The notes under the pieces are model-generated. The model was not told the DNA's origin, searched no databases, and was given only the letters and a program-made list of their open reading frames with translations. A stretch of DNA of 55,400 nt from an uncultured Ruminococcus sp. (GTDB taxonomy: Bacteria; Bacillota; Clostridia; Oscillospirales; Acutalibacteraceae), in contig CADBYC010000011.1 of the NCBI GenBank assembly GCA_902798755.1, forward strand, positions 1 through 55,400, read 5' to 3'. A program made the translations under genes and the position numbers. Shown here piece after piece: positions 9,945 to 30,567 of the stretch; within the stretch, counting starts at the first letter, position 1; every line of letters starts with the position of its first letter.

Positions 9945-11267
9945 ATGAGTAAAATACTTCCCGTTACCCTTTTGACCGGTTACCTCGGCGCGGGCAAAAC
10001 GACCCTGTTGAACCACGTGCTCAATAACCAGGAGGGCTACAAGGTAGCCGTCATCGTCAACGATATCGGCGAGGTCAATATCGACGCTGAGCTGATCCAG
10101 AAAGGCGGCGTCGTCAACGAAAAGGACGAGAACCTCGTCCCGCTCCAGAACGGCTGTATTTGCTGTACGCTCAAAACCGACCTGATCGAGCAGATCTTAG
10201 GCCTTGTCAAACAGCAGAAATTTGATTATATCCTGATCGAAGCGTCGGGTATCTGCGAGCCGATCCCGATCGCTCAGACTATTTCCATGCTCGATGGCTC
10301 CTATAACGACCCCCGTCTGCCCAAGCTCTGCCGTCTGGACAATGTCGTATCCGTTGTTGACGCGGCGCGCCTGTCCACCGAGTTCGGCTGCGGCGGATCT
10401 CTCTTGAAGGACGATATCGACGACGAGGATATCGAGAACCTTCTGATCCAGCAGATCGAATTCTGCAACACCATCATTCTGAACAAGGTCGACCTCGTCA
10501 GCGACGAAGAGCTGGTCAATATCAAGAAGGTCATTCGCGCGCTCCAGCCCGAGGCGAAGATCATCGAGACCACCCGCGGACAGGTCGCCATCAGCGAGAT
10601 CCTCGACACCAACAATTTCGATTTTGATAAGGTCGCTTCCTCCGCGGCATGGGTACAGGAGCTCAATGCCGACGTTGATGATGACGACGATCACGATGAG
10701 CACGACCATCATGACCATGACGATGACGAGCATGACCATCATGACCACGACGATGACGAGCACGAGCATCACCATCATCACGACCACGATGATGACGAGC
10801 ACGAGCATCACCATCATCACGACCATGACGAAGACGAGCATGAACACGGTCACGGTCATCACCATCACCACCACCATCATGACGGCGGCGAGGTAGAGGA
10901 ATACGGTATCGGCACCTTTGTATACTACCGCCGCGCACCGTTCTCCAAGGATAAATTTGAGAAATTCCTCGCGTCCTTCCCGAAGAACGTCATTCGCTCC
11001 AAGGGCCTGTTCTGGATCAAAGAGGACAAGGATTGGGCGATCATGTTCGAGCAGTCCGGCAAGCAGATGGATTGCACCGACTACGGTCAGTGGCTTGCCG
11101 CCGCTCCTGCGCATATCCGCCGCAAGATGTTCAAGGAGGATCCCGAGCTGCAGAACGATTGGGATGATAAGTACGGCGACCGTATGATCAAGCTGGTCTT
11201 TATCGGTCACAATATGGACAAAGAGGGCATCATCAAGGCTCTTGACGACTGCCTGACCGAGCTCTGA
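9945..11267 (+). CDS. COG0523 G3E-family GTPase (CobW/ZNG-like metallochaperone) with His/Asp-rich loop
   Basis: 440 residues. Walker A GYLGAGKT is at 12-19, the metal-binding CICC motif at 71-74, and the ASG and NKVD nucleotide motifs follow. A roughly 70-residue His/Asp stretch (about 245-313) comes next, then a CobW C-terminal domain (from about 318, YGIGTFVYYRR). COG0523 proteins use GTP hydrolysis to load metals, mainly zinc or cobalt, into client enzymes. The CxCC motif binds the transferred metal, and the His-rich loop can store or capture it. No metal enzyme or transporter neighbours it, so the client is unknown. The family usually has a far shorter His loop. Confidence 0.93.
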   Translation: MSKILPVTLLTGYLGAGKTTLLNHVLNNQEGYKVAVIVNDIGEVNIDAELIQKGGVVNEKDENLVPLQNGCICCTLKTDLIEQILGLVKQQKFDYILIEASGICEPIPIAQTISMLDGSYNDPRLPKLCRLDNVVSVVDAARLSTEFGCGGSLLKDDIDDEDIENLLIQQIEFCNTIILNKVDLVSDEELVNIKKVIRALQPEAKIIETTRGQVAISEILDTNNFDFDKVASSAAWVQELNADVDDDDDHDEHDHHDHDDDEHDHHDHDDDEHEHHHHHDHDDDEHEHHHHHDHDEDEHEHGHGHHHHHHHHDGGEVEEYGIGTFVYYRRAPFSKDKFEKFLASFPKNVIRSKGLFWIKEDKDWAIMFEQSGKQMDCTDYGQWLAAAPAHIRRKMFKEDPELQNDWDDKYGDRMIKLVFIGHNMDKEGIIKALDDCLTEL

Positions 11268-12322: not shown

Positions 12323-12350
12323 TTGAATTTTTTTCATATTGTAGTATAAT
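12323..12350 (+). promoter_or_regulatory. Promoter of the Dlt-like operon
   Basis: TTGAAT (12323-12328), 16 bp, TATAAT (12345-12350). It lies in an AT-rich intergenic stretch 84 bp upstream of the chosen ATG. Confidence 0.72.
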
Positions 12351-12433
12351 ATTTAATGTATTACTATGGATTATTATGGAAAATTATAAGATGCCGCAAT
12401 TTTTCGGCGGTATACAGAAAGGACGTGCTGAAT

Positions 12434-13939
12434 ATGCAGACATCGGTTCTCGAACGCTTGGATCATGTCGCCGCCGTCTATACGGACAAGGTGATGTTCA
12501 AGGATCCCGAGCGCAGCCTGACCTTCGGTCAGTTCGACAAGCTCACCAAATCCATCGGTACTTACCTTGCGGGTGTGACCGCTCCCGGCGATCCAGTCGC
12601 GGTCATGTCCGGCAGACATGTTTATACACCCTCTTGCTTCCTCGGCGCTGTCAGAGCGGGTTGCTTCTATGCTCCGATGGACGGCGATATGCCCAAGGCA
12701 AGACTCAACCAGATCCTCTCCGTCATCAAGGCGCCGTATATGCTGGTCGATCAGGCGCATCTCGAGCAGGCTCAGTCCCTCGAGTTCGACGGCAAGATCA
12801 TCGTGATGGAAGAGATCATGGATACCCCTGCTGACGAAGCCCTGCTCGCGCAGAGAGCGGCTACTCTCGTCTGCACCTCTCCGCTGTACGTGATCTTCAC
12901 CTCCGGCTCTACCGGCAAGCCCAAGGGCGTTATCACCTCGCACCTCTCGCTGATGACCTATATCGACTCCGTGTGCAAGGTGCTCGATATCAACGATACC
13001 GACGTCATGGGCAACCAAAGCCCCCTCGACTATATCGCGGCTGTCCGCGACATCTATTTCCCGATCAGCAAGGGTGCTTCTACCTTCATCATTCCGAAAA
13101 ACGAATTCGCCGTTCCGACAGAGCTGTTCGGTACGCTCAACCGTGAGAAGATCACCGCTTTGTGCTGGAGCGTCGCGGGCGTAGAGATCCCCGCCAAGCT
13201 CGGCGCGTTTGATGAGAGCAAGCCCGAATACCTCAAGAAGCTCTGCTTCTCGGGTTCGGTCATGCCCTGCAAATATCTGAAGATCTGGCAGGAGAACCTG
13301 CCCGACGTCCTCTACGTCAACCAGTACGGTCCCACCGAGGCGACTGCCTCCTGCACCTACTATGTTGTCAAGGAAAAGGTGGACGACGATACCGTCCTGC
13401 CTATCGGCAAGCCGTATGATAATTATAAGATCACACTTCTGAATGAGGACAACACCCTCACTCCCGACGGCGAGATCGGCCAGATCTGCGTCAGCGGTCC
13501 CGTATTGGCGCTCGGCTACTACGGCAACAAGGAAGTCACCGACTTATCCTTTATCCAGAATCCGCTCAACGACAATTACCGCGAGCTGATCTACAAGACA
13601 GGCGACCTCGGTCGCTGGGGCGAGGACGGCAACCTGATGTTCCACGGCCGTATGGATCGCCAGATCAAGCATCTGGGTCACCGTATCGAGCTCGGCGAGA
13701 TCGAAGAGACCGCAAAGCTCGTCGAGGGCGTCAAGGATTGCTGCGCGCTGTATAATAAGCCCAAGGCGACCCTCTACCTCTTCTATACAGGAGAAGCGAC
13801 AAGCAAGGATATCGTGCTCTATTTCAGAGCCAATATGCCCGCCTTCATGGTGCCGCGCAAGCTGATCAACCTCGAAGAAATGCCCGCCCTGCCTAACGGT
13901 AAGACCGACATGCAGGCGCTCAAGGCAATGTTCAAATAA
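12434..13939 (+). CDS. DltA-like amino-acid adenylating enzyme (AMP-dependent synthetase/NRPS A-domain family)
   Basis: 501 residues, the length of D-alanine:carrier ligase DltA. ATP loop FTSGSTGKPKG is at 155-165, FSGS at 272-275, YGPTE at 298-302, KTGD near 388-391, RIELGEIE at 417-424 and catalytic Lys490 in LPNGKTD. Such enzymes activate an amino acid as adenylate and load it on a carrier-protein thioester. Here the carrier gene follows after a repeat. In classical DltA the motif aligned with FSGS is FCGE, whose Cys helps choose D-alanine. The Ser here hints at another substrate (inference). The start was chosen for AAAGGA at 12418; an earlier in-frame start lacks a ribosome site. Confidence 0.85.
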   Translation: MQTSVLERLDHVAAVYTDKVMFKDPERSLTFGQFDKLTKSIGTYLAGVTAPGDPVAVMSGRHVYTPSCFLGAVRAGCFYAPMDGDMPKARLNQILSVIKAPYMLVDQAHLEQAQSLEFDGKIIVMEEIMDTPADEALLAQRAATLVCTSPLYVIFTSGSTGKPKGVITSHLSLMTYIDSVCKVLDINDTDVMGNQSPLDYIAAVRDIYFPISKGASTFIIPKNEFAVPTELFGTLNREKITALCWSVAGVEIPAKLGAFDESKPEYLKKLCFSGSVMPCKYLKIWQENLPDVLYVNQYGPTEATASCTYYVVKEKVDDDTVLPIGKPYDNYKITLLNEDNTLTPDGEIGQICVSGPVLALGYYGNKEVTDLSFIQNPLNDNYRELIYKTGDLGRWGEDGNLMFHGRMDRQIKHLGHRIELGEIEETAKLVEGVKDCCALYNKPKATLYLFYTGEATSKDIVLYFRANMPAFMVPRKLINLEEMPALPNGKTDMQALKAMFK

Positions 13940-13946
13940 ATTATCA

Positions 13947-14113
13947 GGCTCCCTTTGGTAAAGGGAGCTGTCAGCGCAAGCTGACTGAGGGATTGCACAA
14001 TTGACCGAGCGAAGTGAGAAACCCTTGTTTATTCGGTCGATCGTATAACAAGTGTCGTGCTCTATGACACAATCCTGCTAATCTACCTCCCTTAGAAAAG
14101 GGGAACTATGACA
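13947..14113 (+). repeat. Dispersed structured repeat, copy A
   Basis: It begins GGCTCCCTTTGGTAAAGGGA, a hairpin. A second hairpin GTCAGC-GCAA-GCTGAC follows, then TGAGGGATTGCA, and about 100 bp of weaker similarity ends near CTCCCTTAGAAAAGGGG. A second copy lies at 24899. The element sits between the adenylating enzyme and carrier genes, inside what otherwise looks like one operon, and supplies no ORF. The true right boundary is uncertain. Confidence 0.75.
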
Positions 14114-14167
14114 GTATATTACCTAAAGGTGATAATAAATTAAAGATCAATAAAAGGAGTAATTATC

Positions 14168-14395
14168 ATGGATGAATTAATGGAAATCTTACAGGAACTC
14201 AGACCCGACGTTGACTTTGAAAACGAAACCGCTCTGATTACCGACGGCATTCTCGATTCTTTTGATATCGTTGCTCTCGTAGGCGAGCTCAACGATGCTT
14301 TCGATATCGAGATCAAGCCCAACAACCTTGTTCCCGAGAACTTCAACTCCGCGAAGGCTATGATGGCTCTCGTCGAGAAGCTCCAGGACGAATAA
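14168..14395 (+). CDS. DltC-like acyl/peptidyl carrier protein
   Basis: 75 acidic residues forming a four-helix carrier. Ser31 in ILDSFD is the phosphopantetheine attachment site. The pattern after it, IVALVGELNDAFDIEI, then ENFNSAKAMMALV, matches DltC-type carriers. AAAAGGAG lies 8 bp before the ATG. It would receive the activated amino acid from the upstream ligase. The surrounding genes suggest transfer across the membrane by the MBOAT protein rather than fatty-acid or polyketide synthesis. Confidence 0.93.
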   Translation: MDELMEILQELRPDVDFENETALITDGILDSFDIVALVGELNDAFDIEIKPNNLVPENFNSAKAMMALVEKLQDE

Positions 14396-14409
14396 TCCGA
14401 CTGATCGTC

Positions 14410-14442
14410 TCCTGTTCGGGAGTTTTGCGCTTCCGGACAGGA
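14410..14442 (+). promoter_or_regulatory. Intercistronic hairpin between carrier and decarboxylase genes
   Basis: TCCTGT (14410-14415) pairs with ACAGGA (14437-14442), with further pairing inside and no T run. It is more likely an mRNA-processing or stability element than a terminator, and could explain high carrier-protein output. Confidence 0.45.
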
Positions 14443-14480
14443 ACATTTCGAATCTAATTTTCCGTAAAGGAATGATATAA

Positions 14481-15668
14481 ATGGATATCAATAAGCTAAG
14501 GGAGCTCTTACCCCGCGTAGGGACCCCCTCTTATATCTTTGAACTTGACGCGTTCCAAAAGCGCGCTGAGCTGGTCAAAAAATATTTCGGCGACAAGATC
14601 GGACTCTGCTTCTCTATCAAAGCGAATCCCTTCCTGCTGGGCAGACTCCCCGAGGTCTTTGACAAGATCGAGGTCTGCTCTCCCGGCGAGCTGACGGTCT
14701 GCGAGCGCACCGGCGCCGATATGAGCACCGTCATCTTCTCCGGCGTCAACAAGGGCTACGCGGACGTCGAGCGCGCCGCCGATGACAACGTCGGCACCTT
14801 CACCGCCGAAAGCCCGCTCCATCTTGAACTGATCAATGACGCGGCGCTGTGCAGAGGCAAGGTCTTTGACCTCTTACTGCGCGTGACCGATATCAAGGGC
14901 GGCAGCCAGTTCGGCATGAACGAAGAGGTCACTCTCGACATCATCCGCCGCCGCGACGAATATAAGGGCGTCAATATCGTCGGTCTGCACTACTTCACCG
15001 GTACGGCAAAGCGCAAGGCGAAGCCCATCGAGAAGGAATGCGACTACCTGATGGATCTGACCGCCCGTATCAAGAGCGATCTCGGCTTCACCGTACAGCG
15101 CATCGAGTACGGCACAGGCCTTGCGGTCGACTATTTCTCCGAGACTGCCGACGCGGAAGAGGAGGAGCGCCTCGCTTCTATCTCTCCTAAATTGCAGGAG
15201 CTTGCCGAAGTCGCCGAGCTGACGGTCGAGATGGGTCGTTTCTTTGCCGCTCCCTGCGGTTACTATCTGACCAAGGTCGTCGATACCAAGACCAATTTCG
15301 ATATCAACTACGCCATCGTTGACGGCGGTATGAATCAGGTCAAGTACAACGGTCAGCTCCAGGGCATGCAGATCCCCGAGATCCTGCATCTGGCGGATCG
15401 CGACCTTTCAGGCGACGCTCAGCCGTGGACGTTGTGCGGTTCTATCTGTACGACAGCCGATATCTTAGCACGCAACGCGATGTTCACCGACCTCAGGATC
15501 GGCGATATCCTCGTGTTCTGCCGTACGGGCGCGTACTCCTGCATGGAGGGTATCTCCACCTTCCTCAGCCGCGAGATGCCCGTCATCGCTGAGTACAGCG
15601 AGAAAGAGGGTCTGACGATCCTGCGCGAGATGTTCTACTCCGACGAGTTGAACACACCGCACAGATAA
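14481..15668 (+). CDS. PLP-dependent fold-type III amino-acid decarboxylase-like enzyme of the Dlt-like operon
   Basis: 395 residues. An alanine-racemase-like barrel carries the PLP lysine Lys47 in FSIKANP. His170 (GLHYF), a glycine-rich EYGTGLAVDY (usually GGGLG) and Glu250 in VEMGRFF follow. Near the C-terminal beta domain are Cys323 in GSICTTAD and the active-site loop GAYSCMEG. The family includes diaminopimelate, ornithine and carboxynorspermidine decarboxylases and carrier-linked decarboxylases of biosynthetic clusters. Since a carrier-loading enzyme and its carrier precede it, it may act on a free or carrier-bound amino acid. Racemase activity is less likely because the decarboxylase Cys loop is present. 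AAAGGA precedes the ATG. Confidence 0.82.
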   Translation: MDINKLRELLPRVGTPSYIFELDAFQKRAELVKKYFGDKIGLCFSIKANPFLLGRLPEVFDKIEVCSPGELTVCERTGADMSTVIFSGVNKGYADVERAADDNVGTFTAESPLHLELINDAALCRGKVFDLLLRVTDIKGGSQFGMNEEVTLDIIRRRDEYKGVNIVGLHYFTGTAKRKAKPIEKECDYLMDLTARIKSDLGFTVQRIEYGTGLAVDYFSETADAEEEERLASISPKLQELAEVAELTVEMGRFFAAPCGYYLTKVVDTKTNFDINYAIVDGGMNQVKYNGQLQGMQIPEILHLADRDLSGDAQPWTLCGSICTTADILARNAMFTDLRIGDILVFCRTGAYSCMEGISTFLSREMPVIAEYSEKEGLTILREMFYSDELNTPHR

Positions 15669-15716
15669 GCGACCGAAGTTATCATAAAGTTTTAGTTTTA
15701 AGTTCAAAGGTTTACT

Positions 15717-17348
15717 ATGACTTATACATCGATCAAATTTATCTTTTTTGTACTGGCGACGGCGTTGATCTACTTCGTCCTGCCGTGGAAGAAGTACCGC
15801 TGGACGGTACTCCTCGCCGCAAGCGCGGTGTTCTACTGTCTTGCCAGCTATAAGTATGCCGTCTTTATCCTGTTTACGGCGCTGAGCACCCTGCTGATCG
15901 GCTTGTGGCTCGATGATGTGAACAGGAAGGGCAAGCAGCTTTTAAAAGCCAACAAAGGCGAATGGGACAGAGAACAGAAGAAAGCCTTCAAGAATAAGCA
16001 GAAGGTCAAGAAGCGCTGGATCATGGCGCTGTGCCTGATCCTGAACTTCGGTATTCTGGCGTTTTTGAAGTATTACAACTTCTTCTCGGGCTCTTTGAAC
16101 GACATCTTAGGCTCGTTCGGTATCGACTTCTCCGTTCCGACCTTAAAGCTGTTCCTGCCGCTCGGTATCTCGTTCTACACCTTCCAGAGCATGGGCTATA
16201 TCGTGGACGTCTACCGCGAGAAGGTCAAGCCGCAGACCAACCCCTTCAAGTTCCTGCTGTTCGTGTCCTTTTTCCCGCAGATCATCCAAGGTCCTATCAG
16301 CAACTACGAGCAGCTCGGACATCAGCTCTTTGAGGGTCACGACTTCGACTTTACCCGCTTCAAACACGGCTCTCAGTTGATCTTATGGGGCTTCTTCAAG
16401 AAGCTCGTCATCGCCGACAGAGCGGTCGTCGCGATCAATACGGTCACCGCGACCTATCAGGGCTATAATAAATATTCAGGCACGACGCTGACCTTCACGA
16501 TCCTGCTCTACGCCTTCCAGCTGTATGCCGACTTCTCGGGCGGTATCGATATCTCCCGCGGCGTGGCTCAGCTCTTCGGCATCGACCTGATCGACAACTT
16601 CAAGCGTCCGTACTTCTCAAAGTCCATCAACGAGTATTGGCGCAGATGGCATATCTCTCTCGGCGCTTGGATGAAGGATTACATCTTCAACCCGCTGGCG
16701 ATCTCCTCGGCGTTCCTCAACGCGAGCAAGAAGATGAGAGGCACCCGCTTCGGCAAGACCAAGGCAGGCTCCCATATCGCCAAGGTGCTCCCGACCGCGT
16801 TCGCTTCGCTGATCGTCTTTCTGATCGTCGGTATCTGGCACGGCGCGAGCTATAAATATGTCGCCTTCGGTCTGTGGAACGGCGTGATCATCATGATCTC
16901 CACCCTCATGCAGCCGCTGTTTGACGGCGTGACCGACAAGCTCCATATCAACCGCAAGAACTTCTTCTTCCGTCTGTTCCAGATGATCCGAACCTTCATC
17001 GTGGTACTGGTCGGCTATGTGTTCGACGTAGCGCCCTCGTTCAAGCAGGGCATGATGACCATTTCCCGCTTCTTCACCGACCAGAGCATCACCCGCGGCA
17101 AGACCGAGATCTTGAAACTGGGTATCACATGGAAGGATTATATCCTGCTCGGCGTATGCGTGATCGTGATCTGGATCGTCAGCATGATCCAGGAGAAGCA
17201 CTCCGATACCACCATCCGCGAAATGCTCGATAAAAAGCCGTTTATCCTGCGTTTTATCGTGTTCTTCTTACTGATCATGGCGGTCATCGTCTTCGGTATC
17301 TACGGCTCGGGCTATGCCGCTTCCGACTTTGTCTACATGCAGTTCTAG
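15717..17348 (+). CDS. DltB-like membrane-bound O-acyltransferase (MBOAT)
   Basis: 543 residues with about 12 membrane segments. MBOAT signatures are GISFYTFQSMGYIVDVYR, SFFPQIIQGPI, NEYWRRWHISLGAWMKDY and the catalytic His375 in GIWHGASY. It is longer than DltB (about 400) and closer in size to alginate O-acetylase-type MBOATs. It would take the carrier-bound group on the inside and pass it through the membrane for transfer to a wall polymer. AAAGG sits 6 bp before the ATG. It is followed by the SGNH/DltD-like partner, the usual pairing. Confidence 0.9.
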   Translation: MTYTSIKFIFFVLATALIYFVLPWKKYRWTVLLAASAVFYCLASYKYAVFILFTALSTLLIGLWLDDVNRKGKQLLKANKGEWDREQKKAFKNKQKVKKRWIMALCLILNFGILAFLKYYNFFSGSLNDILGSFGIDFSVPTLKLFLPLGISFYTFQSMGYIVDVYREKVKPQTNPFKFLLFVSFFPQIIQGPISNYEQLGHQLFEGHDFDFTRFKHGSQLILWGFFKKLVIADRAVVAINTVTATYQGYNKYSGTTLTFTILLYAFQLYADFSGGIDISRGVAQLFGIDLIDNFKRPYFSKSINEYWRRWHISLGAWMKDYIFNPLAISSAFLNASKKMRGTRFGKTKAGSHIAKVLPTAFASLIVFLIVGIWHGASYKYVAFGLWNGVIIMISTLMQPLFDGVTDKLHINRKNFFFRLFQMIRTFIVVLVGYVFDVAPSFKQGMMTISRFFTDQSITRGKTEILKLGITWKDYILLGVCVIVIWIVSMIQEKHSDTTIREMLDKKPFILRFIVFFLLIMAVIVFGIYGSGYAASDFVYMQF

Positions 17349-17389
17349 CGGAAAAGCTTTGAGAAGATTTATATTTTGAGGCTGAACCT

Positions 17390-18601
17390 ATGAAAGCAAA
17401 ATTATATATCACCCGAGGTATCAAGCTTTTGGCTTTTGCCCTCGCGGTGATCTCATCTACCTATCTGCTTCAGACATTTTTGCTGAAGCGCATTGATAAC
17501 AACACCATGCGCATGGAGGCGTTCTATCTTGAGGAAAAGGAGTCCATCGATGCCGTTCTGATCGGCGCATCCGATGTGTACGCCGGCTACTCCGCGCCCT
17601 ATGCCTATGAAAAATACGGCTATACCAGTTATCCCTACGCGACCCAGAGTTCTCCGGCGAATATTGTTCTTCCCCAGATCAAAGAGGTCATCAAGTACCA
17701 AAATCCCAAGATGATCATCGTAGAGATCAACGCGTTCATGTATAAGGATAATGAACTCCCCTCTGAAGCGAGCCAGCGTATGTTTGCGGACAACGTCCCG
17801 CACGACCAGATCTGGCGCGATTATCTTGCCGACGCGATCCCTGCCGATAAGCAGATCGAGTATTATCTGCCTATCGTGAAGTATCACAGCTCATGGAACG
17901 AGTATCCGTGGAAGTTCAAGTACCTCACAGCGGAGCTCGGACTCAAGCAGGCCGGCTATTCGCTGTTCCGCGGCTACAAGACGGTCGCTAACGAATTCCA
18001 CCCGACCGTCAAGGTCTATAACAGTGAGCTCAAGGACGACGATTCTACCTATCCGCTCGGCGTCAACGGCGAACGCTATCTGAGACAGACGCTGGAATAT
18101 CTCAAAGAGAACAATATCACTAACGTCGTATTCATGCGATTCCCTCATATCGTCCGCACTGAGGCGTATTCGCGTTTCAGGCGCTGTAACGAGGCGGGCA
18201 ATATCATCAACAGCTACGGCTATGATTTCGTCAACCTCGAGCGCTACGGCGAGGAGGAAGGCTTTGTCGTCGATGAGGATTTCTATAACTGGGATCATCT
18301 GAATATCTACGGTACCGAGAAGCTGACCGACTATATCGCCGATATGCTGCAGAACAAGTATCATATGACCTCTGCCGAGCTGACCGACGCCCAAAAAACG
18401 GAATGGAACGATTCGGTGAACTACTATCATATGATCTACAATTACAGTCAGGAGATGATCAGCCGCCGCAAAGAGCTGGGCAAGACCGGCAACGGAGGCA
18501 CGACCGTCTCGGAAGATGAAAAGAGTATCTCGACGATCATGGAATACGCCCGCAAGCACCCCGATAAGGGTAAATACGACGTCGTTCTCAAAGATGAATA
18601 A
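17390..18601 (+). CDS. DltD/AlgX-like SGNH-fold protein partner of the MBOAT
   Basis: 403 residues anchored by one N-terminal helix (about 10-30) with the rest outside. A putative nucleophile, Ser61, lies in LIGASDVYAG, and the Asp302-His303 pair lies in NWDHLNIYG, as in DltD and alginate O-acetylation proteins. Length and layout match DltD. It probably accepts the group from the MBOAT and places it on the extracellular polymer, or edits it. It is the last gene of the operon before a terminator. Confidence 0.8.
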   Translation: MKAKLYITRGIKLLAFALAVISSTYLLQTFLLKRIDNNTMRMEAFYLEEKESIDAVLIGASDVYAGYSAPYAYEKYGYTSYPYATQSSPANIVLPQIKEVIKYQNPKMIIVEINAFMYKDNELPSEASQRMFADNVPHDQIWRDYLADAIPADKQIEYYLPIVKYHSSWNEYPWKFKYLTAELGLKQAGYSLFRGYKTVANEFHPTVKVYNSELKDDDSTYPLGVNGERYLRQTLEYLKENNITNVVFMRFPHIVRTEAYSRFRRCNEAGNIINSYGYDFVNLERYGEEEGFVVDEDFYNWDHLNIYGTEKLTDYIADMLQNKYHMTSAELTDAQKTEWNDSVNYYHMIYNYSQEMISRRKELGKTGNGGTTVSEDEKSISTIMEYARKHPDKGKYDVVLKDE

Positions 18602-18616
18602 GCATTAGCTTCAAAG

Positions 18617-18641
18617 GCTCCCGCTTCTCGGCGGGAGCTTT
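18617..18641 (+). terminator. Terminator of the Dlt-like operon
   Basis: GCTCCCGC (18617-18624) pairs with GCGGGAGC (18631-18638); the T run is short (TTTC). Confidence 0.65.
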
Positions 18642-18825: not shown

Positions 18826-19245
18826 ATGTTCTTAGGTACGACCGACCATAACTTAGACGCTAAGGGCAGAGTGATCCTGCCTACCCATTTCAGAGAAGAG
18901 CTTGGCGAGAGCTTTTATATCACGATGGGCTTCAATCGCTGCGTACAGGTGCTCAGCGAAGCACAGTTCGATCGTCTGCGCGATCAGATCCGTCAGCTCC
19001 CCGCTGACAAAGCTCTCTCCCTGCAGTATCTCCTGATCTCTCCCGCAAAGCTGGTCACTCCCAACTCACAGGGCAGGGTCAGTATTCCGCAGAAGCTGCG
19101 CGAGGACGCGGGGCTGAACGGCGAAGTTACCGTAGTCGGCATGGATACCCGCGTCGAGATATGGGACAAGGCGACGTTCAATGTCTTTATGGAGCAGCAA
19201 AAGCAGTCTTCTGTCAAAGAAGCGCTTGAACTGCTGAGGCTGTAA
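18826..19245 (+). CDS. mraZ: Transcriptional regulator MraZ
   Basis: 139 residues, full length, with two AbrB-like swapped-hairpin repeats: HNLDAKGRVILPTHFRE near the start and VTPNSQGRVSIPQKLRE in the second half. MraZ forms ring oligomers that bind direct repeats in its own promoter and modulate the division and wall cluster that follows. It is the first gene of the cluster and lies 2 bp from rsmH. Confidence 0.97.
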   Translation: MFLGTTDHNLDAKGRVILPTHFREELGESFYITMGFNRCVQVLSEAQFDRLRDQIRQLPADKALSLQYLLISPAKLVTPNSQGRVSIPQKLREDAGLNGEVTVVGMDTRVEIWDKATFNVFMEQQKQSSVKEALELLRL

Positions 19246-19247
19246 GC

Positions 19248-20171
19248 ATGGAATTCACTCATGTAAGCGTGCTTCTTTATGAAGCGGTCGACGGCTTGAA
19301 TATCCGTCCCGACGGAATCTATATCGACGGAACAGCAGGCGGCGGAGGTCATTCGGCAGAGATCTTGTCCCGATTGACGAGCGGCAGGCTGTACAGTATC
19401 GACCAGGATCCCGACGCCATCGCCACCGTTACCGAGCGTTTCAAGGACGACGACCGTTCCACGATCCTGCAAGGCAATTTCGGCGATATGAAAGCGCTTT
19501 TGAATGACGTCGGCGTATACGCGGTCGACGGCGTGCTTCTGGATATCGGCGTATCGTCCCATCAGCTGGACGATGGCTCCCGCGGATTTTCCTATCACGA
19601 GGACGCGCCGCTGGATATGCGCATGAGCCAAAGCGGCGAGACGGCGGCAGATTTAGTCAATACCTTGGACGTCGGCGAACTGAGCAGGATCATTTCCCTC
19701 TACGGCGAAGAGAAATACGCGTTCTCTATCGCAAAGGGGATCGTTCGCGCGCGTGAGATAAAGCCGATCGAAACGACCTTAGAGCTTGCCGAGATCGTCA
19801 AGGAGAACGTACCGCAGAAGGTGCGCCGCGACGGCCATCCCGCCCGCAAGACCTTTCAGGCGTTGCGGATTGCGGTCAATCACGAGCTCGATGTGCTCGA
19901 AAGCGGCTTGCAGGGCGCTTTTGAATTACTCAGTCAGGGCGGCAGGCTGAGCGTGATCACCTTCCATTCACTTGAGGATCGCATCGTCAAGCAGTTTATG
20001 CGCGACAAAGCACAGGGCTGTACCTGTCCCAAGGACTTCCCCGTGTGCGTCTGCGGCAATAAACCGAAGGTCAAGATCATCACCAGAAAGCCGATTTTGC
20101 CCTCTGATGAGGAATTAGAGCGCAATCCCAGAGCCCGTTCGGCGAAGCTGAGAGTATGCGAAAAGCTCTGA
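19248..20171 (+). CDS. rsmH: 16S rRNA (cytosine-1402-N4)-methyltransferase RsmH
   Basis: 307 residues, family length. SAM-binding DGTAGGGGHS is near 26, LLDIGVSSHQLDDGSRGFS is near 96, DMRMS and the helical insert domain follow, and TFHSLEDRIVK is near 243. It methylates C1402 of 16S rRNA with RsmI. Its position after mraZ is the usual one. The gene ends in a 370-bp gap before the ftsL-like gene. Confidence 0.97.
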   Translation: MEFTHVSVLLYEAVDGLNIRPDGIYIDGTAGGGGHSAEILSRLTSGRLYSIDQDPDAIATVTERFKDDDRSTILQGNFGDMKALLNDVGVYAVDGVLLDIGVSSHQLDDGSRGFSYHEDAPLDMRMSQSGETAADLVNTLDVGELSRIISLYGEEKYAFSIAKGIVRAREIKPIETTLELAEIVKENVPQKVRRDGHPARKTFQALRIAVNHELDVLESGLQGAFELLSQGGRLSVITFHSLEDRIVKQFMRDKAQGCTCPKDFPVCVCGNKPKVKIITRKPILPSDEELERNPRARSAKLRVCEKL

Positions 20172-20582
20172 TTTTTCCTGATTGGAAATTTCAGTCACCC
20201 TAAGAAAGTATTTCTAACATATTGCGCAAATTGTCGGCGAATCAACCGCATATTTGTATAGTTTTACTATGGACAACCGCAGTAGGATATAGTAGAATGA
20301 TAACAAGATTGTAATAATTGCGCTAACCCTATAGATTGTGATAAAATCCCGATAAAAACACATTATCCTGTGAAATCAGGGCAAAAATGTCACGATAACG
20401 GTTAAAAGAAGATTACAGAAAAATTACAGTCGATTTATCATTCTTCGCCGCTCGGACAAGCTCCCGACGGCGAACGGATCAATTGATTATCCCTACTCTT
20501 TATATAGATAAAACAGAAACAGACAGAACAGAAACCAAAGTGCTTGGAACGCACGCAACCATCAAAGGATCAGTGGTGCAGC
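20172..20582 (+). other. Long untranslated interval inside the dcw cluster
   Basis: 411 bp without a credible ORF. It is AT-rich in the first 270 bp and contains several -10-like sites (for example TAAAAT near 20342) without convincing -35 partners. A GC hairpin TTCGCCG / CGGCGAA lies at 20444-20450 / 20468-20474. AAAGGA (20564-20569) and GTGGTG (20572-20577) precede the next ATG. It could be a leader with its own promoter or the scar of a lost gene. Confidence 0.4.
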
Positions 20583-21137
20583 ATGGATTATTACTATCGC
20601 AGCAGCCTTGCCTATGATCTCACCCTTTTCGAAGAATCCGAAGCGGATAACGTATCCCATATCGAGAGAGAGTCTTCCGAGAATAAGAGCGAGAGAGCGG
20701 ACGGCGGCACGAGAAACAGTAATAAACGCGACAGAAACAACAGAACAAAGAAGAACTCGAAGCAAAAAGGCCGCCGCTCAAAGATCGGGCGCATCATTTT
20801 CGGCGTCGTGTGCGGCCTGTTGATGGCGTTCGTCGTCGTCTCCATCATTCACGGTCAGGTCCAGCTGACCGAGCTGAATCAGGAGATCGCCGACGCAAAG
20901 GCTCGCCTTGCCGAGCAGCAGAGTATTTACACACAGCTGGAGATGAAGGTGGATTCCTCGATCTCGACTACGGTCGTAGAGGACTACGCCAAGAACAATC
21001 TCCATATGAATAAAGCTGCGAACTCTCAGAAGGAGTTTGTCAACCTTTCCGACGGCGACAAGGCGGAGGTCAGTCTGAGCGGCGACAAAAATATTTTCGA
21101 GTCAATTGCCGAGGCGATATCTTCCTTATGGTCATAA
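20583..21137 (+). CDS. ftsL: FtsL-like septum formation protein
   Basis: 184 residues. A charged cytoplasmic part of about 75 residues (rich in Glu, Arg, Lys and Asn) precedes one membrane helix (about 80-98). A coiled-coil heptad region (about 99-130, QLTELNQEIADAKARLAEQQ) and a short tail follow. This topology and the place between rsmH and the PBP gene are those of FtsL, which together with DivIC and DivIB activates septal synthesis. Sequence similarity in the family is always low, so the call leans on context. A TTG start 39 bp upstream is possible but has no ribosome site. Confidence 0.8.
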   Translation: MDYYYRSSLAYDLTLFEESEADNVSHIERESSENKSERADGGTRNSNKRDRNNRTKKNSKQKGRRSKIGRIIFGVVCGLLMAFVVVSIIHGQVQLTELNQEIADAKARLAEQQSIYTQLEMKVDSSISTTVVEDYAKNNLHMNKAANSQKEFVNLSDGDKAEVSLSGDKNIFESIAEAISSLWS

Positions 21138-21180
21138 CAGGTATATATTTTTTGCGTTTGAATAGAATTTAGATGAGGTA

Positions 21181-21222
21181 AGAGTTGAGATTTTATCTTA
21201 ACTCTTATTCGTGTTTTTACAG
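21181..21222 (+). terminator. Hairpin with T-rich tail after the ftsL-like gene
   Basis: AAGAGTTGAGA (21181-21191) pairs with TCTTAACTCTT (21197-21207, one G-U), then ATTCGTGTTTTT. It may be an attenuating terminator inside the dcw cluster. Confidence 0.5.
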
Positions 21223-21280
21223 AGCGGCATTCAGCGACCGTTTTTGGCGGCTGAAACGCTCATTTTGCTGTCGGATCGTC

Positions 21281-21438
21281 ATACTAATCCTTAATAAAAA
21301 CCTTTATCATCTATTGCGCTATATTTCGTATAGCTTTGTTGGTATCCTTGACAGGCGCCAGCCTGTCTGCGTTTCCCGTCGCGCTATCCGAAATATATCA
21401 CTAATATCTGATTAAATCTTTTATCAAGGATTAGTATC
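21281..21438 (+). mobile_element. MITE-like palindromic element, complete copy
   Basis: 158 bp with terminal inverted repeats ATACTAATCCTT...AAGGATTAGTAT. The two halves are imperfect reverse complements throughout and meet at a central hairpin GACAGGC-GCCA-GCCTGTC (21350-21367). The first 96 bp match the element at 55305 in 93 of 96 positions. It carries no ORF, so it would need a transposase from elsewhere. It lies between the ftsL-like and pbp genes. Confidence 0.8.
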
Positions 21439-21486
21439 AAGCCGATCCGCGGATCAAAGATTTTTTCATGAAAGGAGTGATCGCTC

Positions 21487-23811
21487 ATGGGAGCTAATCA
21501 GAAGCTCAGAAGAAGAACCGTATGGCTGTTGATCATCGTATTGGCAGTCGGCTTCGGCGCGGTTATCACCCGACTGGCGTATCTGCAGCTGGTACAGGGC
21601 GAAGAGCTCCAGAGAAGAGCGATCGAACAGCAGCTGGCGGATACTCCGATCTCCGCCAAGCGCGGCACGATATACGACACCAAGGGCAAGATCTTAGCGC
21701 AGTCCGCCTCCGTATGGCAGGTCGTCATGGCTCCTGCGTACTTCGACGACGGGGCAGAGGGCGACGAACAGCGATCTTTTGTCGCGTCGCGCCTTGCTTC
21801 TATCCTCGACTTGGACGAAGCGGAGCTTCTGGAGGACACCAAGCAGAATACCTACTATGTGTCCGTCAAGCGCAAGGTCGAGAGCGAGCAAAAGGAGCAG
21901 ATCATCGAGCTGCAAAAGGAGCTTGCGGAAAAGTACCAGAAACCCGGTATCATCTCCCTGCTCGACGACTACAAGCGCTACTACCCCTACAGCGACCTCG
22001 CGTCCTCGGTCATCGGCTTCACCGGCTCTGAGGATCAGGGCTTGTGGGGTGTCGAGTACCAGTACAACGACTATCTCTCGGGCACACCCGGCCGCATCAT
22101 ATCGGCACAGAACGGTATTCAGACAGAAATGCCCTTCGATTATAACCAGAACATCGGCGCGATCGACGGCAGCTCGGTGGTGCTCACCATCGACGAGACC
22201 GTCCAGAGTATCGTTGAAAAATACATGAAGCAGGGTATCATCGACAACCAAGTCCATGAGCGCGGCGTTTGTATCGTCATGAACGTCAACAACGGCGAGA
22301 TCGTCGCGATGGCGTCCGTCAACGGCTTCGACCTCAATGACCCCTTCACCATTCTCCCCGATCAGAAAAAAGAGATCGAGGCGATCGACCTCGATTATCT
22401 GATCAAGCACGATTATTTTGAAGAAGACGAAGATCCCTACAAGCTCAGCGAAGAGAAAAAGAAAGAGCTGATCGAGCAGGCACAGAACGAGGCTGAGAGC
22501 GCCGCTCTCGCCCGCAACTGGCGCAACAAGGCGATCTCCGATACCTACTATCCCGGTTCGGTTTTCAAGATGGTCACCCTCTCGATGGCGCTGCAGGAAG
22601 GCGTCGTCAACAAAGACAGCCGCTTCGTCTGTTCGGGCGCGTTCCAGCTTTATGAAGACACCATCCATTGCCATAACACCGCGGGTCACGGCACACAGAC
22701 CTATCAGGAATGTCTGTGGAACTCCTGCAACCCCGGTTTCATTCAGATCGGCCAGCTGGTCGGCAAAACCAAATTCTGGGAGTATTACCAGGCGTTCGGC
22801 TTCTCCGATAAGACAGGTATCGACCTGCCCGGTGAATCCGAGGACCAGTTCTTCGTCCATGACGGCGTAGAGGGCAACATGCTCGATACCGACTTGGCGG
22901 TCGCGTCCTTCGGTCAGAACTTCTCCATCACTCCGATCCAGATGATCACGGCGGCGAGCGCTGTCGCGAACGGCGGCAAGATCGTCCAGCCTCACGTCGT
23001 CAAGCAGATCCTTGACAACGAGGGCAACGTCGTGAAGAACGCCTCCACTGAGACCAAGCGTCAGGTTATTTCCGAATCCGTCTCCGAAGAGATGCGCGGC
23101 ATCATGGAAGAGAACTGTATCTCCGGTTCCGGTAAGAACGGCTACGTCGCGGGCTATCGTGTCGGCGGCAAGACCGGTACTTCCGAGAAGCTGATCGACG
23201 TCAACGATGACGGCGCCGATGACTATATCGCTTCCTTCTGCGGCTTCGCTCCCGCGAACAACCCGCAGTACGCGGCGCTGGTATTCTTTGACGCGCCGCT
23301 CGGCGGCAACTACTACGGCTCCGCGGTCGCGGCCCCTGTATTCGCCAGCATCATGAGCGAGGTTCTGCCTTATCTCGAGGTTGCCGCTCAGTATACCGAC
23401 GAAGAAGCGAGCAATATCGATACGGCGGCAGGCGCGTACAGCGGCATGAGCGTTGATGACGCGGTAGCCGCGGCAGAGCGCGACGGCTTTACTGTCACGG
23501 TCAAGGGCGAAGGCTCTACAGTCGTGTCTCAGAATCCTTCGACGGGTGCTTCAATGCCGACAGGCGGCACCATCGTCCTGTATACGGATCAAAGCGGCAC
23601 CGACGAAAAGGTAACGGTACCGAATCTGGTCGGCTTCAGCGTATCCGAAGTCAACGGCATCGCGTCCTCCTACGGACTGAACGTCAGCGTCACGGGTATG
23701 GTATCGTCCTCCGACAGTACCTCCACCACGCAGAGCGTACCCGAGGGCACCGAGGTCGCTCCCGGTACGGTCATCACCGTCACCTTCAGCGGCGGCGGTA
23801 TCGCGGACTAA
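21487..23811 (+). CDS. SpoVD/PBP2x-type class B penicillin-binding protein with two PASTA domains
   Basis: 774 residues. One N-terminal helix (about 12-32) precedes a dimerisation domain with the RGTIYDTKGKILA motif. The transpeptidase domain has nucleophile Ser358 (PGSVFK), Ser413-Cys-Asn (SxN) and KTGT at 562-565. Two PASTA repeats follow (about 645-700 and 705-772). It cross-links septal or spore peptidoglycan together with the FtsW-like protein encoded downstream. PASTA domains are seen in SpoVD and PBP2x but not in most other class B PBPs; whether the cell sporulates cannot be told here. AAAGGAG (21471-21477) precedes the ATG. Confidence 0.95.
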   Translation: MGANQKLRRRTVWLLIIVLAVGFGAVITRLAYLQLVQGEELQRRAIEQQLADTPISAKRGTIYDTKGKILAQSASVWQVVMAPAYFDDGAEGDEQRSFVASRLASILDLDEAELLEDTKQNTYYVSVKRKVESEQKEQIIELQKELAEKYQKPGIISLLDDYKRYYPYSDLASSVIGFTGSEDQGLWGVEYQYNDYLSGTPGRIISAQNGIQTEMPFDYNQNIGAIDGSSVVLTIDETVQSIVEKYMKQGIIDNQVHERGVCIVMNVNNGEIVAMASVNGFDLNDPFTILPDQKKEIEAIDLDYLIKHDYFEEDEDPYKLSEEKKKELIEQAQNEAESAALARNWRNKAISDTYYPGSVFKMVTLSMALQEGVVNKDSRFVCSGAFQLYEDTIHCHNTAGHGTQTYQECLWNSCNPGFIQIGQLVGKTKFWEYYQAFGFSDKTGIDLPGESEDQFFVHDGVEGNMLDTDLAVASFGQNFSITPIQMITAASAVANGGKIVQPHVVKQILDNEGNVVKNASTETKRQVISESVSEEMRGIMEENCISGSGKNGYVAGYRVGGKTGTSEKLIDVNDDGADDYIASFCGFAPANNPQYAALVFFDAPLGGNYYGSAVAAPVFASIMSEVLPYLEVAAQYTDEEASNIDTAAGAYSGMSVDDAVAAAERDGFTVTVKGEGSTVVSQNPSTGASMPTGGTIVLYTDQSGTDEKVTVPNLVGFSVSEVNGIASSYGLNVSVTGMVSSSDSTSTTQSVPEGTEVAPGTVITVTFSGGGIAD

Positions 23812-23894
23812 TCAAATCATAGAGCTTGGGGCGGGGCTTCCCGCTCCGCGGCTCCTCTATCCATATAAGAGAATTCCAAAAATGAGGTGAAATA

Positions 23895-24893
23895 ATGGAG
23901 ACAGGTTTATGGGCATTCGGTGTGGCGGTCGTATCATTTGCCATCACCGCGATCATAGGTAGGTACCTGATACCTTTCCTCCACAAATTGAATTTCGGCC
24001 AGACGATTCTGGACATCGGTCCCAACTGGCATAAAAACAAGCAGGGCACTCCCACGATGGGCGGCATCATGTTCGTTATCGGTATCGTGATCGCGACCTC
24101 CGCGGGTGTTCTGCTCTACGCGATCGGTCACGGACTCGATTCCGTCAGCCGCTTTGTGTTCGCGGGCTTGCTGTTCGCGCTGCTCAACGGCGGCATCGGC
24201 TTCATCGACGACTATGTCAAGGTCGTCAAGAAGCGCAATCTCGGTCTGACCGCGATCCAGAAGCTGGTTCTGCAGTTCTTGGTGGCGGCGATCTACCTCT
24301 TCGTCATGTATCTGTGCAAGGATAATACAGAGATCCTCGTGCCCTTTGTCGGCTATGTCGATCTCGGCTTCTTCTACTATATCGTGATGGCTGTCGTGCT
24401 CGTCGGCATCGTAAACGCTGTGAACCTGACGGACGGCATCGACGGCCTTGCGGGCTCCGTTACCTTCTTTGCCTGCCTGTTCATGATGCTGATCGCCAAC
24501 GTGCTTGGCAATCATGTCGCGAACGTCCTGTTTGCCGCGGCGGCGGCAGGCGGCTGTCTGGGCTTCCTGATCTGGAACTTCCACCCCGCCAAGTGCTTCA
24601 TGGGCGACACAGGCTCGCTCTTCCTCGGCGCGATGGTCTGCGCGATCGCTCTGGCGATGGATATGCAGCTATTGTTGATCCTGATCGCACTGGTCTACCT
24701 GATCGAGATGTTCTCTGTCATGCTGCAGGTCACCTACTTCAAGCTCACCCACGGCAAGCGCCTGTTCAAGATGTCCCCGATCCACCATCATTTTGAGATG
24801 TGCGGCTGGTCGGAAATGAAGATCGTATGCGTTTTCTCCGCCTTCACCGCTCTTTGCGGACTCGGTGCGCTGCTCTTGGTGATCTTCGGATAG
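23895..24893 (+). CDS. mraY: Phospho-N-acetylmuramoyl-pentapeptide transferase MraY
   Basis: 332 residues with ten membrane segments. Diagnostic motifs are GTPTMGG, FIDDYVKVVKKRN (catalytic Asp pair), NLTDGIDGLA, FMGDTGSL and the HHHFE motif near the end. It makes lipid I by moving phospho-MurNAc-pentapeptide from UDP onto undecaprenyl phosphate. MurE and MurF, usually just upstream, are missing here. Confidence 0.98.
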   Translation: METGLWAFGVAVVSFAITAIIGRYLIPFLHKLNFGQTILDIGPNWHKNKQGTPTMGGIMFVIGIVIATSAGVLLYAIGHGLDSVSRFVFAGLLFALLNGGIGFIDDYVKVVKKRNLGLTAIQKLVLQFLVAAIYLFVMYLCKDNTEILVPFVGYVDLGFFYYIVMAVVLVGIVNAVNLTDGIDGLAGSVTFFACLFMMLIANVLGNHVANVLFAAAAAGGCLGFLIWNFHPAKCFMGDTGSLFLGAMVCAIALAMDMQLLLILIALVYLIEMFSVMLQVTYFKLTHGKRLFKMSPIHHHFEMCGWSEMKIVCVFSAFTALCGLGALLLVIFG

Positions 24894-24898
24894 CCATA

Positions 24899-25029
24899 GG
24901 CTCCCTTTGGTAAAGGGAGCTCCCGCGACCCGGCGGGTGAGGGATTGCATAATTGATCGAGCGGCAGCGAGAATCCATATACTTATTGGTTTGGTTGCTA
25001 TACCCGTATATATGATCCCTCAGACTACT
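24899..25029 (+). repeat. Dispersed structured repeat, copy B
   Basis: It opens with the same GGCTCCCTTTGGTAAAGGGA hairpin as the element at 13947. The second stem is CCCGC..GCGGG instead of GTCAGC..GCTGAC, followed again by TGAGGGATTGCA. The stem is kept while its bases differ, which suggests selection for structure. It fills the gap between mraY and ftsW. Confidence 0.75.
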
Positions 25030-25049
25030 TTACAGAAAGGACTCGGCAT

Positions 25050-26273
25050 ATGTTGACAATCGAAAACACCTCGCGCCGCAGGGCGCGGGATTATGAGAGT
25101 GAGCGTCGTGCCTCGTCCAAAAAAGGCAGACGAAAAATCAACTTCTCACTGCTGAATATCGGTAAAGGTATCGATATTCCCTTCGTTCTTCTGATATTTG
25201 TATTGCTCGCCATCGGCATCACCATGATGTTCTCGGCAAGCTACCCTGTCGCTTATTACGAGATCGGCGACAGCTATTATTACTTAAAGCGTCAGCTGAT
25301 CTTCGCGCTGATCGGACTGGTGGTCATGATCGCGGTCTCCTTCGTCGATTACCATTACTACCACCGCTTCGCCGCGATCATCTTAGGTATCAGCTACTTT
25401 GCACTGGTGCTCGTGCTGGTACTTCCGTCCCAGGAGGGCGGCGTTCACCGATGGATCGGCGTCGGTATGTTCGGTATCCAGGCGTCGGAGATCAGTAAAT
25501 TCGCGATCATCCTCTTTATGGCGCACTGGGGCAGCCGATATTATGACCGCATGGATACGCTTAAATACGGCGTCCTCCCCGGCGCGGCGGTCTTTCTTTC
25601 CACTGCTTTTCTGTTGCTCTTTGAGCCGCATTACTCCTGTATCGTTATCATCGGTATCCTGACAGTCGTTATGATGTACGTTTCGGGCATCAAGATCAAG
25701 TGGCTTGCGATCGGCGCGGCGGTGCTCGCGGTGCTGATCCTCCTGCTCTGGGTCACCGGTATGCTGACCTACGCGATGGAGCGTATGGACGGCTGGGGTC
25801 AGGCGTTGTCCGACGACCTTGATCGCGATATGTGGAACAGTACATGGCAGACGAGAAACAGCCTCTACGCCATCGGTTCGGGCGGCTTGTTCGGACTGGG
25901 CTTGGGGCAGAGCCGACAAAAGTATCTATACCTACCCGAACCGCAGAACGACTTTATCTTTGCTATCGTCTGCGAGGAACTCGGGCTCGTCGGCGCGGTG
26001 CTGATATTGCTGATATTCGCCCTGCTCGTCTGGCGCGGCATCATCATTTCCCTGCGCGCGCGCGACCGTTTCGGCAAACTGCTCGGTATCGGTCTGACGA
26101 CGCATATCGGACTACAGGTCGTACTGAATATATTGGTAATCACCGACTGGCTGCCCAATACGGGTATCTCCCTGCCGTTCTTCAGCTACGGCGGTTCCTC
26201 ACTGCTGACGCTGATGTTTGAGATGGGCGTTATCCTCGCGGTATCCAGAACGTCGAATATTGAAAAAAGCTAA
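25050..26273 (+). CDS. ftsW: FtsW/SpoVE-family lipid II polymerase (SEDS protein)
   Basis: 407 residues. A basic cytoplasmic start of about 45 residues precedes about ten membrane segments. SEDS motifs are GGVHRWIGVG, FEPHYS, QSRQKYLYLPEPQNDFIFA and LPNTGISLPFFSYGGSS. It polymerises glycan strands with the class B PBP encoded upstream. FtsW versus SpoVE cannot be separated from sequence alone. AAAGGA precedes the ATG. Confidence 0.94.
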   Translation: MLTIENTSRRRARDYESERRASSKKGRRKINFSLLNIGKGIDIPFVLLIFVLLAIGITMMFSASYPVAYYEIGDSYYYLKRQLIFALIGLVVMIAVSFVDYHYYHRFAAIILGISYFALVLVLVLPSQEGGVHRWIGVGMFGIQASEISKFAIILFMAHWGSRYYDRMDTLKYGVLPGAAVFLSTAFLLLFEPHYSCIVIIGILTVVMMYVSGIKIKWLAIGAAVLAVLILLLWVTGMLTYAMERMDGWGQALSDDLDRDMWNSTWQTRNSLYAIGSGGLFGLGLGQSRQKYLYLPEPQNDFIFAIVCEELGLVGAVLILLIFALLVWRGIIISLRARDRFGKLLGIGLTTHIGLQVVLNILVITDWLPNTGISLPFFSYGGSSLLTLMFEMGVILAVSRTSNIEKS

Positions 26274-26277
26274 GAGA

Positions 26278-26411
26278 GTTAGGAATTAGGAGTTAGGAGT
26301 TGATGGTGGGTTCTGCCCACACCCATTTGTAATATGATATCATACGTATTACCGATTCAAAACGCTTCAGCGTTTCCCTAAACTTCTCACTTCTCACTTC
26401 TCACTCCTCAC
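26278..26411 (+). repeat. Intergenic repeat element with AGGAGTT and CTTCTCA tandem ends
   Basis: The left end is GTTAGGAATTAGGAGTTAGG. The right end is tandem CTTCTCA units (26383-26411). In between are small palindromes TGGGTTCTGCCCA and AAACGCTTCAGCGTTT. There is no ORF. It has the look of a dispersed mini-element, but only one copy is in this window. It separates ftsW and murG. Confidence 0.55.
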
Positions 26412-26431
26412 TAAATTAATCGGAGTTTTTT

Positions 26432-27553: not shown

Positions 27554-27624
27554 GAAAACCAGTCACAAAACCGACCGACCTTTCATAGTATAAAAGGCAT
27601 AGAGTCTTTGAAAGGGTGTTGGGT

Positions 27625-28878: not shown

Positions 28879-28910
28879 CCTAAATAAAGATAAAAGAAAG
28901 GAGGGGTATT

Positions 28911-30395: not shown

Positions 30396-30464
30396 AGTGT
30401 AAACACAACCATTCCCTGTGAAAATTTATCAATTTTTTGAAAAATATTCAGAAAATGATTGAAA

Positions 30465-30492
30465 TTATCACTGATATGTGTTAACTTATAAT
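30465..30492 (+). promoter_or_regulatory. Possible ftsZ promoter
   Basis: TATAAT (30487-30492) with TTATCA (30465-30470) at 16 bp in an AT-rich gap. AAGGAGG (30554-30560) serves the ftsZ ATG. Confidence 0.55.
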
Positions 30493-30567
30493 ATGATAGA
30501 AGAAATATAATGCGTATGTATGCGTGAGCGTTTATGACCCTCACACATATGACAAGGAGGATATAAA

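Follow-up and report, generated by a model that had tools for sequence, protein, structure and literature searches.

A Dlt-like operon with a BtrK-like decarboxylase in an uncultured Ruminococcus: a possible system for decorating a surface polymer

Why would an operon that resembles the D-alanylation system carry a decarboxylase? D-alanylation by the Dlt proteins is the textbook Gram-positive means of tuning surface charge. The question is raised by a stretch of 55,400 nucleotides, here called the window, from an uncultured Ruminococcus sp. (GenBank assembly GCA_902798755.1, contig CADBYC010000011.1, positions 1 to 55,400 of the forward strand), which is contig 11 of a 2.44-Mb draft genome that is 90% complete. 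Domain profile searches place five genes there on one strand at 12434-18601: a ligase, a carrier protein, a fold-type III pyridoxal phosphate (PLP) decarboxylase that we call DEC, an MBOAT protein and an SGNH-like protein. A preliminary description of this DNA had named the same five genes at this place, and the profile matches bear it out, the SGNH-like gene through its alignment with DltD profiles. Taken as a whole, what that description observed is partly confirmed and how it interpreted the operon is partly supported.

We give about even chances to the following reading of these sequences. The genes would form a Dlt-like export-acylation operon, in which glutamate or aspartate is loaded through its side chain, decarboxylated on the carrier and passed as γ-aminobutyrate (GABA) or β-alanine to a surface polymer. 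The ligase would activate an acidic amino acid (glutamate most likely, aspartate second) by adenylating its side-chain carboxyl, and thioesterify it to the phosphopantetheine of the carrier. DEC would then strip the free α-carboxyl from the carrier-bound amino acid, leaving a γ-aminobutyryl-carrier (or a β-alanyl-carrier). The DltB-like MBOAT would move the ω-aminoacyl group across the membrane and, with its SGNH/DltD-like partner, would esterify it to a polymer of the cell surface, whose positive charge would increase, as in D-alanylation. We infer the substrate, the timing on the carrier, the product, the acceptor and the physiological role.

The co-occurrence of the five families, which the preliminary description had proposed as a check, is conserved. 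In the named-genome set, which holds the best 80 of at least 567 confirmed DEC loci, all five genes stand on one strand in 61/80. Of the remaining 19, 14 are incomplete and no more than 3.5 kb from a contig end, and 5 have ligase, carrier and DEC but no MBOAT or SGNH gene on that strand. Among 150 genomes of the family, 13 (the window's own included) have an operon-type DEC scoring at least 171 bits, and the next match falls to 88 bits, the level of LysA. All five genes are present in 12 of these 13, the window included, and the last is cut by a contig end. A sample of the class gave DEC profile matches at E 1e-60 in 19/391 genomes: 14 (own included) reach at least 369 bits, and the five at 212-223 bits are not operon members. 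When the high-scoring class loci new to us were examined, 7/8 held all five genes, L205 was without MBOAT and SGNH, and a ninth, L211, was cut by a contig end. Conservation of this kind is far beyond chance. Among the matches listed, the nearest named relatives of DEC are from uncultured Ruminococcus and Clostridiales, several of them from ruminants, and a DEC locus is also found under the names Ruminococcus albus (L131 and L133, which carry the operon), Pseudobutyrivibrio, Butyrivibrio, Mogibacterium and Lachnospiraceae.

The decarboxylase itself resembles BtrK, which converts Glu-S-BtrI, a glutamyl-carrier, to the GABA-S-carrier in the account cited in part here (PMC7857480). BtrK was the best match of the DEC profile against the PDB (178 bits), ahead of a "probable" diaminopimelate (DAP) decarboxylase, 6knh (167.4 bits), and of DAP decarboxylase (LysA) entries from 160.5 bits down. 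In the LysA of Thermotoga (TmDAPDC), DAP is held at its distal end by Arg249 and Arg285, which contact the carboxylate, and by Glu315, which contacts the amino group, and the E315T exchange lowers DAP activity from 675 to 26 mU/mg, according to the cited portion of PMC8277567. We read these columns in 92 operon DECs, setting aside L154 (two open reading frames [ORFs]) at Arg285 and Glu315 and L127 (late start) at the PLP lysine. The Arg285 column holds Tyr in 91/91 readable sequences and the Glu315 column holds Thr in 88 and Ser in 3; LysA-type controls, 17 from genomes of the family and 1 from the window's own genome, keep both residues in 18/18. BtrK, by alignment, has Phe and Thr there. Conservation is complete (91/91 readable at each) for the PLP lysine, both CxxxD residues (Cys and Asp) and the column of Arg249. 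In the window, the pocket residues are K47, R253, Y289, C323, T324 and D327, a set identical to neither BtrK nor LysA. Judged by this alignment, the pocket is BtrK-like and non-LysA.

The ligase is likewise set apart from the enzyme that it resembles. It scores 236.8 bits against the DltA model TIGR01734 (cut-off 559.85) and 257.8 bits against a second DltA model (cut-off 476), and no DltA that passes the TIGR01734 cut-off occurs in any of 20 genomes (13 with the operon, 7 lacking it). A FastTree tree was built from 103 ligases after leaving out those shorter than 430 residues (DltA excepted) and those with 80% identity or more to a sequence already retained. In this tree, the Dlt-like ligase family separates from 12 true DltA with a support of 100. 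We then compared the substrate pocket at what we take to be GrsA positions 235, 236 and 239, for which 69/80 named-genome loci supplied a ligase longer than 450 residues. Position 239 is Lys or Arg in 96/96 DEC-linked ligases versus 0/12 true DltA; many of the 96 are close relatives, and 58 are left at less than 80% identity. The three positions read Ile-Ala-Arg in 68 of the 96 and Asp-X-Lys in 28, and Asp-X-(Ser, Met, Ile, Ala) in 12/12 true DltA, from all of which the window's ligase differs at 235 and 239. The Ile-Ala-Arg type occurs only with DEC (0/37 ligases without DEC). Its members form one clade (support 100), whose sister is a clade of DEC-less Asp-Ala/Gly-Lys ligases (support 92). 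Thus, a single branch of this tree carries both the pocket change and the association with DEC, which makes one event and no statistical proof. With the amino-binding Asp gone and an Arg gained, the pocket would fit a substrate that is activated at a carboxyl distant from its α-amino group and held at its α-carboxylate by the Arg.

Could DEC instead act on a free acidic amino acid, with the ligase loading ready-made GABA or β-alanine and all else unchanged? We consider this unlikely, although it has points in its favor. Many fold-type III decarboxylases use free substrates, and the genes would be linked under either reading. IdnL3, whether or not it shares this fold, decarboxylates free β-glutamate in the cited part of PMC11284099, where loading must precede decarboxylation in the VinN-VinL-VinO system of vicenistatin. 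However, DEC lacks the pair, Arg285 and Glu315, by which LysA holds the distal end of a free substrate, the Arg or Lys of the ligase pocket suits a substrate that still bears its carboxylate, and the nearest solved relative by profile, BtrK, is carrier specific. The preliminary description had left decarboxylation "free or on the carrier"; the BtrK match, together with the precedents of BtrK and VinO, narrows this toward the carrier. No ORF matching two of the families, a gene fusion that would prove on-carrier chemistry, was seen in the 80 named loci.

It is improbable that DEC converts its substrate in another way, using a different (amino-)dicarboxylic acid or supplying a D-amino acid to the DltA-like ligase by racemization. 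In favor of such a conversion, the pocket is not identical to that of either BtrK or LysA, and the alanine racemase N-terminal domain gives a weak match of 22.5 bits, under its cut-off of 24.1. Retention of the CxxxD Cys and Asp and of the PLP lysine in all readable sequences, with decarboxylases as the best matches, argues against this, and on these grounds we rejected a racemase as unlikely.

If the product is made on the carrier, what receives it? The carrier has an invariant Ser31 in 29/29 aligned sequences and falls under both NCBIfam DltC models, at 34.5 bits (cut-off 68) and 21.5 bits (cut-off 52.35). The MBOAT scores under the TIGR04091 DltB cut-off, and its profile aligns to that of true DltB (hhalign E 3.1e-37) and matches only DltB in the PDB (E 0.001). 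Its H312 and H375, in WRRWH and WHG motifs, are invariant in 22/22. By motif, they probably correspond to His289 and His336, the active histidines of DltB in the cited part of PMC11035591. The SGNH-like protein had no Pfam or NCBIfam match, and a PDB profile search with it gave nothing useful. In an alignment of 27 family members S61 and H303 are invariant and D297 is nearly so, and the family profile makes a modest match to DltD profiles over ~86 columns of the C-terminal catalytic block (hhalign E 1.2e-5, probability 81%). A wall polymer is a plausible acceptor. The draft genome, 90% complete, has one TagF-type PF04464 match above cut-off and no match to PF00884, as expected of an LtaS-type gene; ordinary type I lipoteichoic acid may therefore not be the acceptor.

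The missing LtaS-type gene also bears on the proposal that the operon modifies a lipid, a protein or a capsule and not a teichoic-type wall polymer. MBOAT-less trios beside OafA-type (Acyl_transf_3), hexapeptide or ATP-grasp sugar-transfer genes fit such a role. We nevertheless assign it a low probability, given that the MBOAT profile finds DltB alone in the PDB and that a separate MBOAT/AlgX-type pair lies elsewhere in the window's genome. That the operon is a small natural-product or siderophore pathway, unconnected with the envelope, is very unlikely. The closest mechanistic precedents of the operon, butirosin and vicenistatin, are natural products, and four distant DEC relatives (212-223 bits) lie in clusters that have carrier-like genes and no MBOAT; the typical DEC, however, is accompanied by a DltB-like MBOAT and an SGNH protein, and several operons adjoin a two-component system, with response regulator and histidine kinase genes. 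Those four loci (L206, L207, L209 and L210), with a distant BtrK-like decarboxylase and carrier-like genes, look natural-product-like by eye.

Finally, that DEC is an ordinary LysA (or SpeC) caught in the operon by chance, which the preliminary description had named as a refutation, is barely credible, and we rejected it as far as sequence allows: the TIGR01048 lysA score of 172.6 bits, which favors it, is under the cut-off of 297.9, both distal residues are lost in all readable DECs, linkage holds in 61/80 loci, and a second LysA-like match occurs in 10 of the 12 family-sample genomes that share the operon with the window's genome, and in that genome too, as a LysA-type gene on contig C7. This C7 gene keeps the Arg and Glu but at two more columns is unlike the remaining controls, and it may not be a plain LysA.

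Besides the lack of an LtaS-type gene, several observations weigh against loading of glutamate or aspartate followed by decarboxylation on the carrier and export. DEC on its own, in a single-sequence search, scores equally with a LysA and with BtrK. The trios L145, L148, L150, L159 and L160 have no same-strand MBOAT or SGNH gene though no contig end is near. Of the 14 incomplete contig-end loci, L128 and L130 have other genes after DEC, and L127 has a DEC with no ligase in the 9 kb upstream; thus, the 14 are not all mere truncations. The operon is also a minority trait, found in 13/150 genomes of the family. Lys239 is present in 26/37 DEC-less ligases as well, which weakens the inference about the substrate: a basic residue at 239 is by itself no marker of the DEC substrate. 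In an early sample, 82/82 DEC-linked ligases were basic at this position and 2/3 DEC-less ones were not; the wider sample ended its use as a marker, and we cut the claim back to the Ile-Ala-Arg type. The ligase tree needs 4 changes of the DEC label in all, and an independent-pairs test, with 2 supported pairs, was without power.

We asked how the operon relates to its DEC-less relatives. With a DEC-less ligase as the query, 52 places were found in 50/345 genomes of the order; two of the 52 places were not included. The 40 newly examined places comprise 6 with DEC and 34 without; by these searches, the 34 have a carrier in 32, an MBOAT in 30 and an SGNH gene in 19. A gene of 254-265 residues follows the ligase in 6 DEC-less loci and is a GNAT by Pfam in the 3/3 examined (L260, L270 and L279), and a GNAT follows the ligase in L079 and L259, which also have no DEC. 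The place beside the carrier can thus hold a decarboxylase, a GNAT or nothing, which suggests a modular tailoring system, with DEC filling one "tailoring slot" of a wider Dlt-like family. The type of ligase pocket follows the tailoring gene to a large extent: DEC goes with Ile-Ala-Arg and mostly Asp-Val-Lys, and GNAT with Asp-Leu-Lys, and with Ser-Met-Ser/Thr and most Asp-Ala-Lys ligases neither was seen. We tentatively propose, with some doubt, that Clostridia have a modular Dlt-like family, in which a ligase and carrier work with an exchangeable enzyme that tailors the carrier-bound acyl group, so that GABA, β-alanine or N-acylated amino acids, and not D-alanine, decorate envelope polymers of rumen and gut bacteria.

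Some loci depart from the usual layout. In L260 (4696-6522) and L285 (3090-4931), the gene after the MBOAT, expected to be SGNH, encodes a large protein that contains a polysaccharide deacetylase domain. In L159 (10181-12263), the ligase-carrier-DEC trio lies in a polysaccharide locus and is followed by two acyltransferase genes in place of an MBOAT; the first acyltransferase is Acyl_transf_3 by Pfam and the second is similar by eye.

Gene order and transcription in the window differ in part from the preliminary description. It had placed the genes in Dlt order, and this does not hold: in the window the carrier precedes the MBOAT, unlike true dlt operons of the same class, which run A-B-C-D or D-A-B-C (DltD there being named by place and length). 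Carrier before MBOAT is the usual order of this Dlt-like family, with or without DEC. The position of DEC between carrier and MBOAT stands for the window; relatives show ligase-carrier-DEC, ligase-DEC-carrier and DEC-carrier-ligase orders. The gaps between the five genes are 228, 85, 48 and 41 bp in gene order, and the medians in 58 same-order relatives are short (42, 8, 29 and 17 bp), which supports an operon in general. The features are collected in Table 1.

Table 1. Features of the operon and its surroundings in the window
Feature	Position	Strand	Basis or remark
Promoter-like site, TTGAAT-16-TATAAT	12323..12350	+	10/12 consensus match, weak
DltA-like adenylating ligase (LIG)	12434..13939	+	PF00501 193 bits; alignment with relatives
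Putative ligase pocket residues I201, A202, R205			Equated with GrsA positions 235, 236, 239; located through LgrA
Repeat element between ligase and carrier genes	13940..14110	.	31 genome matches including self; two hairpins
Second promoter-like site, ahead of carrier gene	14108..14136	+	10/12 consensus match, weak
Carrier protein (CP), Ser31 in DSFD	14168..14395	+	PF00550 21.1 bits, cut-off 20.8
Fold-type III PLP decarboxylase (DEC)	14481..15668	+	PF02784 and PF00278; BtrK-like pocket
DltB-like MBOAT	15717..17348	+	PF03062; TIGR04091 DltB 143.4 bits, cut-off 375
SGNH/DltD-like protein	17390..18601	+	Family alignment; hhalign to true DltD
Terminator-like hairpin	18614..18641	+	-23.8 kcal/mol for 56 nt folded, z -3.9

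The ligase gene is where it had been described, with its start moved from 12356. The start in Table 1 is the most likely one because the alignment with relatives begins there and AGAAAGGA lies upstream of it. A single promoter had been proposed, and the sequence does not establish it: a second site matching the consensus equally well lies ahead of the carrier gene, and the region has 12 promoter-like sites where 7.4 +/- 2.7 are expected. The 228-bp gap between ligase and carrier genes holds the repeat element and then this second site, and the carrier gene may have a separate transcription start in the window's genome. As for the single terminator, a strong hairpin stands after the last gene; its T tract is short, however, and the terminator scan did not have it among the sites called.

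A dcw (division and wall) cluster lies just downstream of the operon (18826-31689), with genes for MraZ, RsmH (MraW), a PASTA penicillin-binding protein, MraY-, FtsW-, MurG- and MurA-type proteins and FtsZ, some of them named by position. Only 10/100 loci have MraZ and RsmH close to the operon (some loci being too short to show them), so we did not use this neighborhood as evidence. Upstream, at 9945-11267, is a CobW-type GTPase with a very long His/Asp-rich repeat that is probably metal binding. The same draft (contigs C8 and C15) has an ORF of nearly 2000 residues that matches adenylation domains twice, together with several other AMP-binding enzymes.

If decarboxylation on the carrier and export to a surface polymer prove true, rumen and gut Ruminococcus and Lachnospiraceae would have a second solution to surface charge, an achiral amine made on the carrier, and carrier-bound decarboxylation, known from antibiotics, would enter envelope biology. 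The surface of the window's bacterium may then bear a charged group other than D-alanine. Resistance to cationic peptides and host signaling of bacteria that carry the operon would have to be read differently, and the mark would be base labile and directly detectable by amino acid analysis. In the titles and abstract openings of open-licence papers, we found no published decarboxylase-bearing Dlt-like operon and no GABA or β-alanine teichoic esters, which is not proof that they are unpublished. Searches of the same literature for the exosortase trio and for nonribosomal codes gave no papers.

How does the operon compare with known systems? It shares with Dlt the ligase, the carrier, the DltB-like MBOAT and a putative DltD-like partner, and probably the export of an amine-bearing acyl group. 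It differs from Dlt in that its ligase, carrier and MBOAT are far under the DltA, DltC and DltB cut-offs, and in its separate ligase clade, its other gene order, its extra decarboxylase and its altered ligase pocket. The exosortase-A-associated system also has a ligase and a fold-type III decarboxylase in one locus (TIGR03098 and TIGR03099). The window's proteins score only 164.7 bits (cut-off 592.35) and 157.9 bits (cut-off 478.45) against these models, and we know of no link of that pair to an MBOAT or DltD. The VinN-VinL-VinO trio is alike in having an adenylating enzyme, a stand-alone carrier and a PLP decarboxylase, a match by trio layout alone; it makes a polyketide starter unit, and to our knowledge it has no export part. 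The butirosin proteins BtrJ, BtrI and BtrK are comparable in their carrier and fold-type III decarboxylase, and loss of the LysA residues is common to BtrK and DEC. However, BtrK works in an antibiotic pathway, which has no MBOAT or SGNH that we know of, and BtrJ is not known to be a DltA-type ligase. The DEC-less Dlt-like operons, of the L078 type and of the GNAT type (L260 and L279), differ in having no decarboxylase and in some cases a GNAT after the ligase, and they share with the window both gene order and ligase clade.

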